A stretch of DNA of 36,956 bases from a virus. Positions 1 to 35,499 of this stretch are shown in pieces (the first letter of the stretch is position 1; each line of letters opens with the position of its first letter). Position numbers and translations under genes: made by a program. The notes beneath the pieces are model-generated. The model was given only the letters and a program-made list of their open reading frames with translations. It had not been told where the DNA came from and searched no databases. The stretch covers positions 1 to 36,956 of IMG/VR virus record IMGVR_UViG_3300046167_000125; one strand, written 5' to 3'.

Positions 1-63
1 CCACAACACACACCTTAACACCGCAGCGCAGAGGCGCGCCCGCGTAGCAGATGTGGCTTAATA

Positions 64-85
64 GTGTCAAGAATGTGTCAAGAAT
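64..85. repeat. 11-bp tandem direct repeat
   Basis: The unit GTGTCAAGAAT occurs twice head to tail (64-74 and 75-85), and the start of a third unit follows. It lies at the left edge of the larger repeat array upstream of the terminase genes. It could be a protein-binding site, but no function can be read from it. Confidence 0.75.
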
Positions 86-95
86 GTGGCGCAAT

Positions 96-381
96 ACAAT
101 GCGCGGCACAATGTTTTGCATTGTCTTACATTTGACAAATGCAGTACCGAGCAAAACAATCAGCTGGCGATTGTTCGCCATTGTTCTACATTTGCCAAAC
201 TCAGTACCGAGCAAAACATTGCAATCCCGATTGTTTTACTCGGTATGCAATTGTTCTACATTTGGCAAATGTAGTACCGAGCAGAACAATGGCGAACAAT
301 GCAATCCCGATTGTTTTACTCGGTATGCAATTGTTCTGCATTTGCTAAATGGCGAACAATGAGATGCAGCGGTATACAATG
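96..381. repeat. Complex direct and inverted repeat array upstream of the terminase genes
   Basis: This stretch has no convincing gene; the short open frames across it are just repeat translations. A core of about 21 bp (ATTGTTCTACATTTG followed by a CAAA-type end) recurs at 119-139, 179-199, 249-269 and 329-349. TACCGAGCAAAACA or a one-base variant lies at 145-158, 205-218 and 275-288, and its near-perfect inverse TGTTTTACTCGGTA at 232-245 and 312-325, so two hairpins can form. A 37-bp block is exactly duplicated at 221-257 and 301-337 (80-bp period). ACAATG or CATTGT occurs at least eight times. A run of nine C follows at 382-390. The position just before terS fits a packaging recognition site or an origin; that is inference. 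Confidence 0.8.
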
Positions 382-26651: not shown

Positions 26652-26762
26652 TCAAAATATAATTGCGACCAGCATCATTAGGCCAGCGCCGCTTGCAAAG
26701 CCAAAGATAGCTCCGACAAGTCCGGCAATGTGAATTTTACGCTCTACCTCTTCGTTAATCAT
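26652..26762 (-). CDS. 36-residue membrane microprotein
   Basis: A very short gene starting in a TGATG overlap with the stop of the HTH gene before it. It reads MINEEVERKIHIAGLVGAIF and continues through a single glycine-rich transmembrane helix (GFASGAGLMMLVAIIF). GAGGGTGAG lies upstream as a possible ribosome-binding site. It is the last gene of the minus-strand operon. Function unknown; small inner-membrane proteins of this kind may alter host physiology. Confidence 0.55.
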   Translation of the reverse strand: MINEEVERKIHIAGLVGAIFGFASGAGLMMLVAIIF

Positions 26763-27529
26763 CACTCACCCTCATCAAAACAGTTATTTAACGGCTGAAT
26801 AGGTTGCTTACTAAATACCCATCGCCACTGCCGCTTGGTGTAACCCGGAACTTCCACGAAATCACGCACACGATAAACCTTGTTCGCTTGCCACATTTTC
26901 TTGAGATAGCTTGACGTGCGAGGAATGCTGTCACCCAGCAGCTCAGCCGCCTCTGCTGCCGTCACGCGCTGGTCATACGGGATCAAAGAAAACAAGCGGT
27001 TGCCTTGGTCAATGCTGTGTTGTTTGCTGGCCTCAGCTGCGCGCTGCATAGATGGGGCCATAGTTGTCGGCCGACGCGGGCCAGATGGCAGAGCTTCACG
27101 TTTGCGCTGGCGATACATGAGATTTTCAAACTCCCACAGGCAATGGCCGTATGTGATCTCGTAGCGCTCGTGCTTATCGGTTACGCCCTCCAGCTTAGCC
27201 CTCAATCGCTCTGCTGCATCTTTTTCATATCGCGCTTTAGCAGATCGAGAAGCGCTTTCTGCTCTTCCAGCCGTTGCTTTAAGTTTGGCCGCATCGCCGT
27301 CTTCTGCTCCGTCAGCATTATGCTGTTGTTGCGCTCCAGCCTTTTTATAATAATCTGAGTTTGGTCCGTACTCACGTTTTTTCCTTTCAAGTTTTATGTT
27401 CGCAGCCGAACAAATGCGATATATTGTTGACGGTGATACGCGCAGCAATTCTGCGGTCTCAATTTGTGACATGCCCTGTTGAGCGCAGTCAAGAACGTGG
27501 CGGGTGAGCGCATCTGGATCGTATTTCAT
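26762..27529 (-). CDS. Helix-turn-helix DNA-binding protein
   Basis: A 255-residue protein from the start at 27529, supported by GGAGG ten bases upstream and by ATGA overlap with the zinc-finger gene; the longer in-frame start at 27580 is not. Residues about 8-40 (HVLDCAQQGMSQIETAELLR, then SPSTIYRIC) form a clear helix-turn-helix. A charged linker (about 50-125) follows. The last 70 residues (VTAAEAAELLGDSIPRTSSY) look like a second winged helix. It follows the primase-helicase gene in the same operon. A replication or transcription role is plausible; I cannot decide which. Confidence 0.75.
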   Translation of the reverse strand: MKYDPDALTRHVLDCAQQGMSQIETAELLRVSPSTIYRICSAANIKLERKKREYGPNSDYYKKAGAQQQHNADGAEDGDAAKLKATAGRAESASRSAKARYEKDAAERLRAKLEGVTDKHERYEITYGHCLWEFENLMYRQRKREALPSGPRRPTTMAPSMQRAAEASKQHSIDQGNRLFSLIPYDQRVTAAEAAELLGDSIPRTSSYLKKMWQANKVYRVRDFVEVPGYTKRQWRWVFSKQPIQPLNNCFDEGE

Positions 27530-27704: not shown

Positions 27705-29612
27705 TTATAAATTTTTGCATTTGCCTTCGTTGTCAGTGAACCACACATGGCCATCGTTTATAACCATATGGCCAGCGCCAATAAGCGCGTCTACAGCTTG
27801 CTTGTAAACTTGGCTCTTGTTGGATGCAGTTGTTACCTTGCCTATAAAGTGATCCTTCAGTGTCTCTTCAGAGATAACCCAATATGTTCTCGGCTCTGGC
27901 CACCCAACCCCTCCGGGGTTTGGTTGCCCAACGCCCTCACCGCGCAGCTGCGTGAATACCTTGCGGATCAGGACTTGGTTCTTGCCCTTGATGCGTGGCT
28001 TGTTGGCCTCTTCGATCTCGCTCTCAGTAGCCTGCACAACGGTACAAGTCGTAACGCTGTCACCATCCTCATCAACGCCAAGCTCGATGACGTTCAACTT
28101 AAACTGGAATATAACGCCTGTTTCCATGTCACGCTGTTTCGTGGCTTTTGCCGTGCGCAGGCCAGTGTTCTCATCGTAATCAAGCTCAATCTCTGTGTCG
28201 GTCGCGGCGCGTAAACTCGAATGCCCCCTAGCGCCAGCAGCTTTGTCCTTGCCGGAGTGGTGAACAACGTCCAAGTGTGCGCTTGTAATCTCGCGCAGCT
28301 TATCGCAGTTGCCGATAAACTTTGTCATATCCTCTGGCGAGTTTTCATTGCCGCCAGCCATTGAGCGGCTGAGCGTGTCAACAAATATGCACTTCACCTG
28401 ACCGTGCTTCTTAGACACCTCACGGCACAGCTTCTCAAGCACAGCCATGTCAACTTCGCCGTCGAGCAAGTTGACCGGGGCAGGGCGCACAGCCAGCTTC
28501 ACATTCTTATGCTCTGGGTATTTCTTTTTCAGCGCAACAACGCGATTGTGGAACGCCATGCCGCCCTCGGTTGCGAGGTATAAGACAGAGCCACCAATAA
28601 CCTTGTGGCCATTCCACTCCTCACCGCAGGCAATGTGCCATGCAAGGTCAAGAGCGAAGAATGATTTGCCCACATTTGATGGTCCGTAAATTACAGACAT
28701 TTGACCCTCGCCAAGCCAGCCCTTCACGAGATAGTTGCGGCTGAGCTGGGGAATGGCCTCATCCGGCATAAAGATTTGATCCATGACGCTCTGCACGGTC
28801 AATGCTTTCTTCGCCGCTGCCGGGCCTTGGTTTACCCACACGTCAGAGTAATCCCATCCCTCCATGTCGGGCAGGATGTACTCAACGCCCAGCTCAGAGA
28901 ATGCGCGCTCGCACTCCTTGCGCCCGGCATCGTCATTGTCGCCAGCAATGACAAGCTCGGCATCTGGCTTGGCTTGTTGCAGGTTGTCTATCACAGCCAA
29001 AATGTTTCCTGCATTTAAAGCAAACACGCATGGCTTGCCCGTGGCCTCATGCACAGTCGCGGCTGTTGCCCAGCCCTCTGCAACATATGCAAACTCACGA
29101 ATGGGGCCGCCAATCACGCTGAAGTTGCCGATCACGGGCAGCTGGTAGGAAAACTTTTTCTTGCCGTCAGCATCAATAAACTGCGCGCCAACGCGCCTGC
29201 CCTTCACATCAATGATTGGTATGGTTAGCGTGTCGCCGTCAATCTTGGCGTTATGCAGTTTAATCTTTTTCTTCTCAAGGTATGGGTGACTGCTCATAGG
29301 GTCACGCTCCGGCCATTCAATATCAACTCTCTTCACCTCCACTGTCGGCGTATGCCCCGGCTGGGGCCAGAGAGACATATCGCGCAGCCTGTCCTTGATG
29401 GCCTTATAGTCATTGCACTTGCGGCAATGAACCATGACCTCGCCTTGAAACTCTTTAATCCAAAACCGATCCGTGCCAGCGCAGGATGGGCATGGACCAT
29501 GATACTCACCCTGCGCAGTCTTTTTCAACTCAAGACTGCGAATGATCGTGTTACCAAACTCCGACCAGCGAGCGGCTGGAAACTTGCTTTCTCTGTTCTG
29601 ATCGGATAACAT
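27705..29612 (-). CDS. DNA primase-helicase (zinc finger, Toprim, RecA-like ATPase)
   Basis: A 635-residue replication protein. A zinc ribbon (C41, C44, C63, C66) is followed by a Toprim domain with E179 (VAEGWATAATVHEATG) and the D225-N-D227 pair (IAGDNDDAG). The RecA-like motor has Walker A GPSNVGKS (310-317), Walker B CIFVDT (D412) and the HHSGKD motif near 451. A winged C-terminal part reads IRKVFTQLRGEG. It synthesises primers and unwinds DNA at the fork. With no phage polymerase in view, it presumably loads the host replicase. The start is the first ATG, with AAAGG ten bases upstream. Confidence 0.93.
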   Translation of the reverse strand: MLSDQNRESKFPAARWSEFGNTIIRSLELKKTAQGEYHGPCPSCAGTDRFWIKEFQGEVMVHCRKCNDYKAIKDRLRDMSLWPQPGHTPTVEVKRVDIEWPERDPMSSHPYLEKKKIKLHNAKIDGDTLTIPIIDVKGRRVGAQFIDADGKKKFSYQLPVIGNFSVIGGPIREFAYVAEGWATAATVHEATGKPCVFALNAGNILAVIDNLQQAKPDAELVIAGDNDDAGRKECERAFSELGVEYILPDMEGWDYSDVWVNQGPAAAKKALTVQSVMDQIFMPDEAIPQLSRNYLVKGWLGEGQMSVIYGPSNVGKSFFALDLAWHIACGEEWNGHKVIGGSVLYLATEGGMAFHNRVVALKKKYPEHKNVKLAVRPAPVNLLDGEVDMAVLEKLCREVSKKHGQVKCIFVDTLSRSMAGGNENSPEDMTKFIGNCDKLREITSAHLDVVHHSGKDKAAGARGHSSLRAATDTEIELDYDENTGLRTAKATKQRDMETGVIFQFKLNVIELGVDEDGDSVTTCTVVQATESEIEEANKPRIKGKNQVLIRKVFTQLRGEGVGQPNPGGVGWPEPRTYWVISEETLKDHFIGKVTTASNKSQVYKQAVDALIGAGHMVINDGHVWFTDNEGKCKNL

Positions 29613-30200: not shown

Positions 30201-30845
30201 TTAAAACGGGATTTCGTCGTCAAGGCCAGCATGTGCTGCTGGCGATGGTGTGGATACAGGCATTGCAAATGGATCATCCGCAGCCGCAACTGGCGTTGCC
30301 GTCACGCTGGACGTAAAGCCACCAGAGACCGAAGTGAACGGATCATCTGAGCCTTGCATCTCTGCAAGCTCCAAGACCTGCACGGCACGCAGCCTAAGCG
30401 ACACGCCATTCAGGCTGCCTGTATTGTATGGCACAACAACAACGGCCACGTTGACCTTGCTTCCGCTGGTCAGCATGAAATCATCCGGCAACTTATTGCG
30501 CTGGGCATCAACTTGCTTTGGTGGCTGTGTCTTGTCACCGCCGTAGGCACCTTTCAGCTTGCACTTGCCGACGACTTCGCCATCGTCATTGCGTTTGTAT
30601 GGAAGCATTGTTGGCTTCTCTGGCCATTTGCGCTTTGTATCCAACGCCGCAGCGTTAGAATACGCCTCCATACAGATACGATGCAGCTCCTTTGCCTTCT
30701 CATCGGACATTACGAAGCTCATTTCGTATGCTGCGCCGTCATCAAACGCATCGCATTTCACTGACTTGTTCTCGTAAGTGTCGAACTTATAAGTGGAATT
30801 TAGACGCGGGTAACGTGCGACGACTTCTGTAATCATGTGTTGCAT
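30201..30845 (-). CDS. Single-stranded DNA-binding protein
   Basis: A 214-residue protein from ATG 30845, where AGGAG lies eight bases upstream; the longer start at 30875 is not supported. The body fits a phage SSB of the T7 gp2.5/DUF2815 type: TYKFDTYENKSVKCDAFDDG, then KCKLKGAYGGDKTQPPKQVD and SGSKVNVAVVVVPYNTGSLN, an OB-like fold. The tail is Gly/Ser/Pro-rich and ends in DDEIPF, almost the bacterial SSB tip (DDDIPF) that binds host replication and repair proteins. It lies just downstream of a recombination exonuclease. Confidence 0.82.
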   Translation of the reverse strand: MQHMITEVVARYPRLNSTYKFDTYENKSVKCDAFDDGAAYEMSFVMSDEKAKELHRICMEAYSNAAALDTKRKWPEKPTMLPYKRNDDGEVVGKCKLKGAYGGDKTQPPKQVDAQRNKLPDDFMLTSGSKVNVAVVVVPYNTGSLNGVSLRLRAVQVLELAEMQGSDDPFTSVSGGFTSSVTATPVAAADDPFAMPVSTPSPAAHAGLDDEIPF

Positions 30846-30892
30846 TTTGCAACTCCTCTCAATGTTGTGCAGCACCCCTGCACTGGGATAGG

Positions 30893-34307: not shown

Positions 34308-34338
34308 TTGTTAAACTCCATGTTTGTGTTGTGCCGCC

Positions 34339-34368
34339 AGTATAAACACGAAAAAAACATATCTGCAA
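34339..34368 (-). promoter_or_regulatory. Early promoter for the minus-strand operon
   Basis: Read on the minus strand, TTGCAG (34368-34363) and TATACT (34344-34339) are 18 bases apart. They lie about 30 bases before the first minus-strand start codon region. The 131-base gap between divergent genes (34308-34438) also has AT-rich TATATT/TATAAA words that may serve the plus-strand genes. The good match makes this the likely main early promoter. Confidence 0.55.
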
Positions 34369-34438
34369 GTATATTTTCCACTGGCTCCCTATATTTTAAA
34401 CATATATAAAGAAAACAGACACAAGAGGAGTCAAAACC

Positions 34439-34603: not shown

Positions 34604-35076
34604 TGCTTATCTACGGATGCGACCCGGGGTTTACCGGGGCCGTGGCTTTATACTGGACCGATACGGGCAAGCTGGAAATCCACGACATGCCAACGGTGAA
34701 AAACACCAAAGGCAAAACGGTCATAAACTGCCCGGCATTGCTGGACGTGCTACAGAACGAAAGCGGCGAGCGCTGCCTTGCCGTCATCGAGCAAGTGGCC
34801 GCAATGCGCGGGCAAGGCGTGTCCAGCATGTTTCGCTTTGGCGAAGGCTATGGGATGCTGCAAATGGGATGCGCTGCAAACAAGCTGCCCGTGCAATTCG
34901 TAACGCCTGCAAAATGGAAAGGCTATTTCCGATTGAGCCGGGATAAAGGCGTGTCGCGCGGTCTCGCAATGCAGCGCTTTCCAGATAACGCCAGCGACTT
35001 TGGCAGGGCGAAAGATGACGGAAGGGCAGAAGCGGCCTTGCTTTGCCTTTACGCGGCAGAAAATATGGTTTCATAA
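34603..35076 (+). CDS. RuvC-like Holliday junction resolvase
   Basis: A 157-residue RNase H-fold endonuclease that cuts four-way junctions formed in replication and recombination. The catalytic acids are D7 in GCDPGFTGAVAL, E63 in AVIEQVAAMRG, and D138/D139 in KDDGRAEAALLCLYA. Length is close to bacterial RuvC. The start at 34603 (TGATG overlap) is used; TTG at 34600 is an alternative. It lies directly next to the iteron-like array. Confidence 0.9.
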   Translation: MLIYGCDPGFTGAVALYWTDTGKLEIHDMPTVKNTKGKTVINCPALLDVLQNESGERCLAVIEQVAAMRGQGVSSMFRFGEGYGMLQMGCAANKLPVQFVTPAKWKGYFRLSRDKGVSRGLAMQRFPDNASDFGRAKDDGRAEAALLCLYAAENMVS

Positions 35077-35218
35077 TTGGATCATAATTGCTGAGCCATA
35101 TAAATAAGGGCTTTAGATGGGTAATTATGATAATTATGATGTGATTATGATCTAATTATTAATTTTGCCCAGCCTCATCATAATATCATAAAATGCCTAT
35201 AGGCATTATGATTATGAT
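35071..35218. repeat. Iteron-like array, candidate replication origin
   Basis: ATTATGAT or its complement ATCATAAT occurs exactly at 35081-35088, 35124-35131, 35133-35140, 35144-35151, 35177-35184, 35205-35212 and 35211-35218, and one variant (ATTATGAA complement) at 35070-35077. Two-thirds of the copies are on the plus strand. Several spacings are 9-11 bp, about one helical turn. A perfect 16-bp palindrome, AATGCCTATAGGCATT, lies at 35192-35207. The stretch 35077-35247 has no gene and is AT-rich. Clustered repeats, a palindrome and AT-rich DNA next to replication genes suggest an origin or a complex operator. Confidence 0.8.
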
Positions 35219-35247: not shown

Positions 35248-35499
35248 ATGGCATATGATTGGGTGAAGTGGGTCAATCAAAAGATTAAGAAGGGCGAGGC
35301 GATTGTTCGCCCTGTAGGCTATCATAAAGGGGGGGAGCGGTTGCAGGGGTTTAGATCAAGGCTTGACGCCTGCCGGGATTTAGCAGAGCTTGAGGGCTTC
35401 GCCAATCGGCGCAGGTTTGATCCAACATTGCCGAGATGGAACGCCAGCGAGCGTGATGCAATCCTGCGGCGCAAGTTTGAGATGGAGAATAAGAAATGA
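35248..35499 (+). CDS. Small basic hypothetical protein
   Basis: An 83-residue protein from the ATG at 35248, preceded by GTGAGG; a GTG at 35236 is the longer alternative. It is basic with segments VKWVNQKIKKGEAIVRPVGY and RLDACRDLAELEGFANRRRF. It is coupled to the next gene by ATGA. No known family; DNA binding is plausible given its place beside the repeat array. Confidence 0.7.
   Translation: MAYDWVKWVNQKIKKGEAIVRPVGYHKGGERLQGFRSRLDACRDLAELEGFANRRRFDPTLPRWNASERDAILRRKFEMENKK

Follow-up and report, generated by a model that had tools for sequence, protein, structure and literature searches.

The DNA analysed here (the window) is a stretch of 36,956 nucleotides, the IMG/VR virus record IMGVR_UViG_3300046167_000125. 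A contig of a relative, L230 (3300047357_000118), matches both window ends with more than 99.8% identity and holds 187 bp between them (L230:6736-6922), therefore the record is regarded as a near-complete, circular or permuted genome minus 187 bp, and a protein read across the window ends (36956/1) was discarded as spurious. No polymerase family was found among the large ORFs searched in the window, in agreement with the first-pass annotation, which had described a polymerase-less phage. The genome encodes a primase-helicase (P0004, 635 aa; 27705..29612, minus strand), closest, among phage records, to those of the cultured Roseobacter phages CRP-831, CRP-821 and CRP-811. It also encodes a Gp2.5-like SSB (PHROG 112; 30201-30848) with the C-terminal end DDEIPF, which is like the bacterial SSB tip recruiting host partners and fits the use of the host replisome.

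The subject of this work is a 148-bp array of short repeats (28% G+C) located between the end of a RuvC-like resolvase gene (PHROG 1770; 34600/34603-35076, plus strand), which lies directly upstream, and a small plus-strand ORF at 35248..35499 whose function is not assigned. The two genes are co-directional and the divergent intergenic region is found elsewhere (34308-34438), so the divergent-arm setting proposed in the first-pass annotation does not apply to the array. The word ATTATGAT occurs in seven exact copies in 35081-35218, starting at 35081 and 35177 on the minus strand and at 35124, 35133, 35144, 35205 and 35211 on the plus strand. The whole window holds nine copies, a number never reached in shuffled sequences (mean 1.0), and the best 8-mer in 20,000 Markov-1 sequences matched to the array in composition had at most six copies; a chance origin of the array is thereby excluded. 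A scan with AATTATGAT allowing two mismatches gave about 10 sites. The seven exact copies of the first-pass annotation are thus confirmed, while the variants number three and not one.

From left to right, a reverse pair of sites is separated by a 33-bp spacer from four forward ones; after a second, short spacer come another reverse pair, a 16-bp palindrome and a final forward pair. The first reverse pair (35070..35089, minus strand) consists of a degenerate site at 35070-35078 and an exact one at 35081-35089, and paired reverse sites are present at the same place in other array types. The spacer (35090..35122) contains CATATAAATAAGGG, common to types A and B described below, at the position where distant relatives have the IHF-consensus site TATCAATGACTTA. 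A perfect IHF consensus, WATCAANNNNTTR, is located between the first pair and the quartet in many outgroup arrays (shuffle frequencies 0.00-0.05 each); in the window spacer the IHF site has two mismatches to the consensus and is no better than in shuffles. The quartet (35123..35162, plus strand) is made up of sites at 35123, 35132, 35143 and, weakly, 35154, spaced 9, 11 and 11 bp apart, and the use of both strands with spacings of about one helical turn was noted correctly at the first reading. The hairpin element is composed of a left arm (35177..35193, minus strand; sites 35177-35185 and 35185-35193, the latter weak), a tip and a right arm (35204..35218, plus strand; sites 35204-35212 and 35210-35218). 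The tip is the perfect palindrome AATGCCTATAGGCATT at 35192..35207, as had been reported before. In relatives the tip reads CCTTTAGG, CCTATAGG or GTGTCTGAAAGACAC: the letters differ and the symmetry is kept, which suggests that structure, or a symmetric assembly, may matter here. In some arrays (L003, L037, L287) the hairpin tips are GAA or GTA triloops with no continuous palindrome, a hint at a folded single strand, beyond a mere symmetric protein site.

The RuvC-like neighbour is encoded by 59 IMG/VR contigs, and in about 50 of them an array of the same layout is found just behind it. Comparison of the array across relatives, a check put forward with the first annotation, thus showed that the layout is conserved but the word itself differs: site positions and orientations are retained, whereas all copies in an array change together. 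The words, each of 8-9 bp, fall into type A (ATTATGAT; 12 contigs and the window), type B (TGTATTAAT/TGTATGAAT; 26 contigs) and a remainder with related words or with GATACTAAT, the word of type C. Two clades of the RuvC-like protein, about 98% and 69% identical to that of the window, each occur with both A and B words, so recombination among these phages is free and the word bears no fixed relation to RuvC; the link to this gene suggested in the first-pass annotation is accordingly incidental. Contig L287 is a natural recombinant which joins a D-type left half to a B-type hairpin half with TGTATGAAT in both, and this is the pattern expected if the word must match a protein while the segments around it recombine. 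Another repeat region, with ATTGTTC/GAACAAT and ACATTTGNCAAAT words in both orientations, is situated at window positions 60-380 upstream of the terminase genes. It is about 89-93% conserved among type A and type B relatives alike, with the same word in both, and is possibly a packaging site.

The gene which follows the word was sought by an association scan, in which every window gene was compared by alignment with homologues from contigs whose word type was known, and positions where A and B are fixed for different residues were recorded. The scan scored 28 genes or reading frames, many structural genes being left out because too few contigs carried them, and the contigs with both a complete patch (see below) and an array (five of type A, six of type B, one or two of each other type) are related to one another. 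Among the scored window genes the word was tracked by the primase-helicase only. Its sequences are about 97% identical between the types and carry seven fixed A/B amino-acid differences, all of them in residues 594-602, while no other scored gene has more than one (two singletons, both from small samples). At the DNA level the same five A and six B contigs show 443 segregating sites in this gene, 14 of which are fixed between the types, and 13 of these 14 lie in codons 594-602. It follows that a 27-base patch (27807..27833, minus strand) tracks the word while its flanks assort freely. The patch reads TTASNKSQV in type A, including the window, SSAANPRST in type B, SSVANPRST in a b type with TGTATTAAT-like words and SSASNPSSI in type C with GATACTAAT, and about 20 further patch/word pairs were found.

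The position of this patch within the protein is consistent with a role in DNA reading. Pfam searches of P0004 recognised Zn_Ribbon_Prim (just under the cut-off), Toprim_3 and AAA_25, which means that primase and helicase domains are fused in one chain. The helicase part is most similar to RepA of plasmid RSF1010 both in sequence (1g8y, E 1.1e-7) and in fold (1olo, Z 21.5, rmsd 2.6 over 225 residues), and its core also matches DnaB/T7-type folds, not SF3. An AlphaFold2 model built with an alignment of 26 relatives predicts a winged helix for residues 537-635 (mean pLDDT 94) with the recognition helix at 599-612, so that the patch would form the turn before it and its first helical turn. The fold matches of the C-terminal domain were mostly winged-helix domains, with the P4 alpha C-terminal domain absent among the 50 matches listed, and a sequence search with the winged helix in PDB returned chance-like matches only. 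In this architecture the primase-helicase is the proposed initiator.

Other binders had been put forward in the first-pass annotation, namely the HTH protein (26762-27529), the OB/winged-helix protein (32159), the RHH protein (34439) and host DnaA, and none of the phage proteins among them tracks the word. The recognition helix of the HTH protein (HTH255) is not type-specific, and an E166D link broke down in a larger panel, where patch B occurred with 23 D and 19 E. The RHH, RuvC-like, OB/winged-helix, SSB, exonuclease-like and DUF6378 proteins either are nearly the same in the two word types or assort freely between them. HTH255 occurs, with 89-98% conservation, also in four contigs (L151, L157, L163 and L210) that carry a different replication module, with no match to the window-type primase-helicase and an SSB only about 29% identical; this suggests that whole replication modules are exchanged beside it.

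In distant roseophages the array is located away from RuvC and starts from a few to about 100 bases past the stop codon of the primase-helicase gene. These outgroup arrays, found by an unbiased repeat scan, likewise have a reverse pair, which is followed by more sites and by a symmetric element that has sites on both flanks. Their words differ by lineage: TGTATAAA in CRP-831 and CRP-821, ACTACAAA in CRP-811 and CRP-823, and in others TGTACGAT, CTATAAAA, CTACTAAT and TGTAGGAAT, among others. In several outgroups the array is followed by a homologue of the small ORF at 35248, and hence the array and this ORF appear to have moved as a unit. Comparable repeats behind the homologous gene were detected in phages of Rhizobium (16-3, with GCGTGACA), Idiomarina, Alteromonas and Salicola and in alphaproteobacterial prophages. 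In bacterial genome contigs an 8-mer with at least six copies was present in 13 of 47 stop-codon regions, whereas none of the 643 control segments taken from these same loci had one. No array was detectable in up to 25.7 kb for the primase-helicases of the NPKT clade (L320-L345). Contigs L447-L452, which also have an NPKT patch, likewise showed no detectable array, and in one of them a 49-bp AT-rich near-perfect palindrome is present instead (L449:2355-2403).

The pairing of patch and word can be read in part as a protein-DNA code. With the words oriented by the analyst's choice so that the A-rich end is 3', and with lineages that are not independent, TGTA stands at the 5' end of the word in seven of seven lineages with Arg600 and in none of the 13 without it; a contact between arginine and guanine would explain this pairing. 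The code is not one-to-one, as contig L288 (NKVS patch, one ambiguous codon) and CRP-811 (NPDS) both use ACTACAAA, and type B tolerates two words. Judged from these sequences, the word and the few amino acids proposed to read it have been exchanged together among relatives in lock-and-key fashion.

Taken together, the layout kept in about 50 relatives, the covariation of word and recognition helix and the outgroup arrays behind the primase-helicase gene support the iteron-type origin that the first-pass annotation had suspected, and we consider it highly probable that the phage initiates replication at this array and that its own primase-helicase binds there through the C-terminal winged helix. 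The array is intergenic and the candidate initiator is encoded 5.5 kb away, unlike the lambda-type arrangement with iterons inside the initiator gene. Cumulative GC skew, which had been recommended as a check, follows the coding strand and for this reason is no test of an origin. Physical binding, opening, priming and recruitment of the host replisome are steps that we infer, and they may proceed as follows. The winged helix would bind the 7-10 copies of the 8-9-bp word, with the spacer between the reverse pair and the quartet probably bent (IHF-like in relatives). Binding would gather the RepA-like helicase ring and the AT-rich region would open, after which the attached Zn-ribbon/Toprim part could prime synthesis, perhaps on the extruded hairpin, for the host polymerase to continue. 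If specificity resides in residues 594-602, as proposed, phages can swap word and patch, become separate replicon types and nevertheless share the remaining genome.

Several other functions have to be weighed against an origin read by the primase-helicase. The array lies 30 bp upstream of the ORF at 35248, some copies resemble -10 hexamers, and five promoter-like matches were counted where 1.1 were expected, all of which would suit an operator to which a phage regulator, or the primase-helicase in an autoregulatory role, binds to control downstream transcription. Such an operator is nevertheless improbable: it is the primase-helicase that tracks the word and no regulator gene does, the words of other lineages (ACTACAAA, GCGTGACA) are unlike -10 boxes, outgroups have different genes behind an array that remains beside the primase-helicase, and the hairpin and quartet layout is more than an operator needs.

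It is even less likely that a host protein, e.g. DnaA, reads the word in a host-factor origin or other host-read site, the types then reflecting different hosts. Polymerase-less phages do need host proteins, but no DnaA-box-like site (TTATNCACA, at most one mismatch) occurs in 35071-35218, and there would be no reason for a 27-nt patch in a phage gene to track the word perfectly if the host were the reader. Equally little weight is given to the array as a cruciform or recombination substrate for the RuvC-like resolvase, or as a packaging site. The array abuts the resolvase gene and its palindrome could extrude a cruciform, yet RuvC clade and word type are unlinked and outgroup arrays lie away from RuvC, behind the primase-helicase; the repeats at 60-380 beside the terminase genes, whose word is the same in A and B, are the better packaging candidate.

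An origin read by the winged helix of a primase-helicase has several partial counterparts. The P4 origin consists of two separate elements, ori1 and crr. Its alpha protein is similar to P0004 in that primase and helicase are united with a winged helix at the C-terminus, which in P4 binds short repeats of the origin (PMC4234260), but the P4 helicase belongs to SF3, whereas here the fold is RepA/DnaB-like and a single compact array that includes the hairpin uses dozens of alternative words. The oriV of RSF1010 (IncQ) shares with the present system a RepA-type helicase and iterons and hairpins where priming starts (PMC4234260). It relies on three proteins, RepA, RepB' (the primase) and RepC, in contrast to the single chain in which reading, unwinding and Zn-ribbon/Toprim priming parts are joined here. 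No separate RepC-like binder and RepB' primase were found, as these parts are fused in P0004 and none of the remaining scored window genes follows the word. In SaPI Rep and SCCmec Cch2 the iterons lie directly behind the helicase gene and are read by the C-terminal domain of its product (PMC7581432), but there is no primase in the same chain, and layout and hosts are different. In the RepA_N/ori system of the PLE satellite, the DNA-binding domain changes in step with the origin iterons and is exchanged along with them, the remainder of the protein being conserved, and the specificity was tested by origin swaps (PMC8263062); there a whole N-terminal domain and iterons of about 30 bp are concerned, as against nine residues and a word of 8-9 bp in the present case. 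For pRN1 and for Bordetella phages it was proposed earlier that a primase-helicase ending in a winged helix acts at an element downstream of its gene, the putative origins of pRN1 and of phages BIP-1/BPP-1 having a stem-loop downstream of such a gene (PMC4234260). Those systems differ in their archaeo-eukaryotic primase, SF3 helicase and lack of iterons, and no specific binding was found for pRN1. A description of the origins of the present primase-helicase family was not found in the literature searched, most subscription journals being outside its coverage.

On balance, we lean towards the view that these phages represent a replicon family that is widespread and has so far gone undescribed. 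Its primase-helicase, a fusion of Zn-ribbon/Toprim and RepA-like parts, would read its own neighbouring array of 8-9-bp iterons by a readable code (Arg600/TGTA for example). Marine phages would switch type by means of a 27-nt patch and a 150-bp cassette, which would create orthogonal replication addresses in populations that in other respects recombine freely; attack directed at the origin, as in the ICP1-PLE conflict, may be the driving pressure. The comparisons pin down a likely origin and a likely initiator for a class of abundant polymerase-less marine phages. The about 20 matched word/patch pairs form a natural series that makes the recognition rule of the initiator directly testable, and since the patch changes between proteins that are about 97% identical, specificity can be tested by a swap of nine residues. 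Short repeats behind RepA-like primase-helicases may serve as a simple origin finder for many phages and prophages, and the finding raises the question of what makes origin addresses so diverse in a single phage population that recombines.
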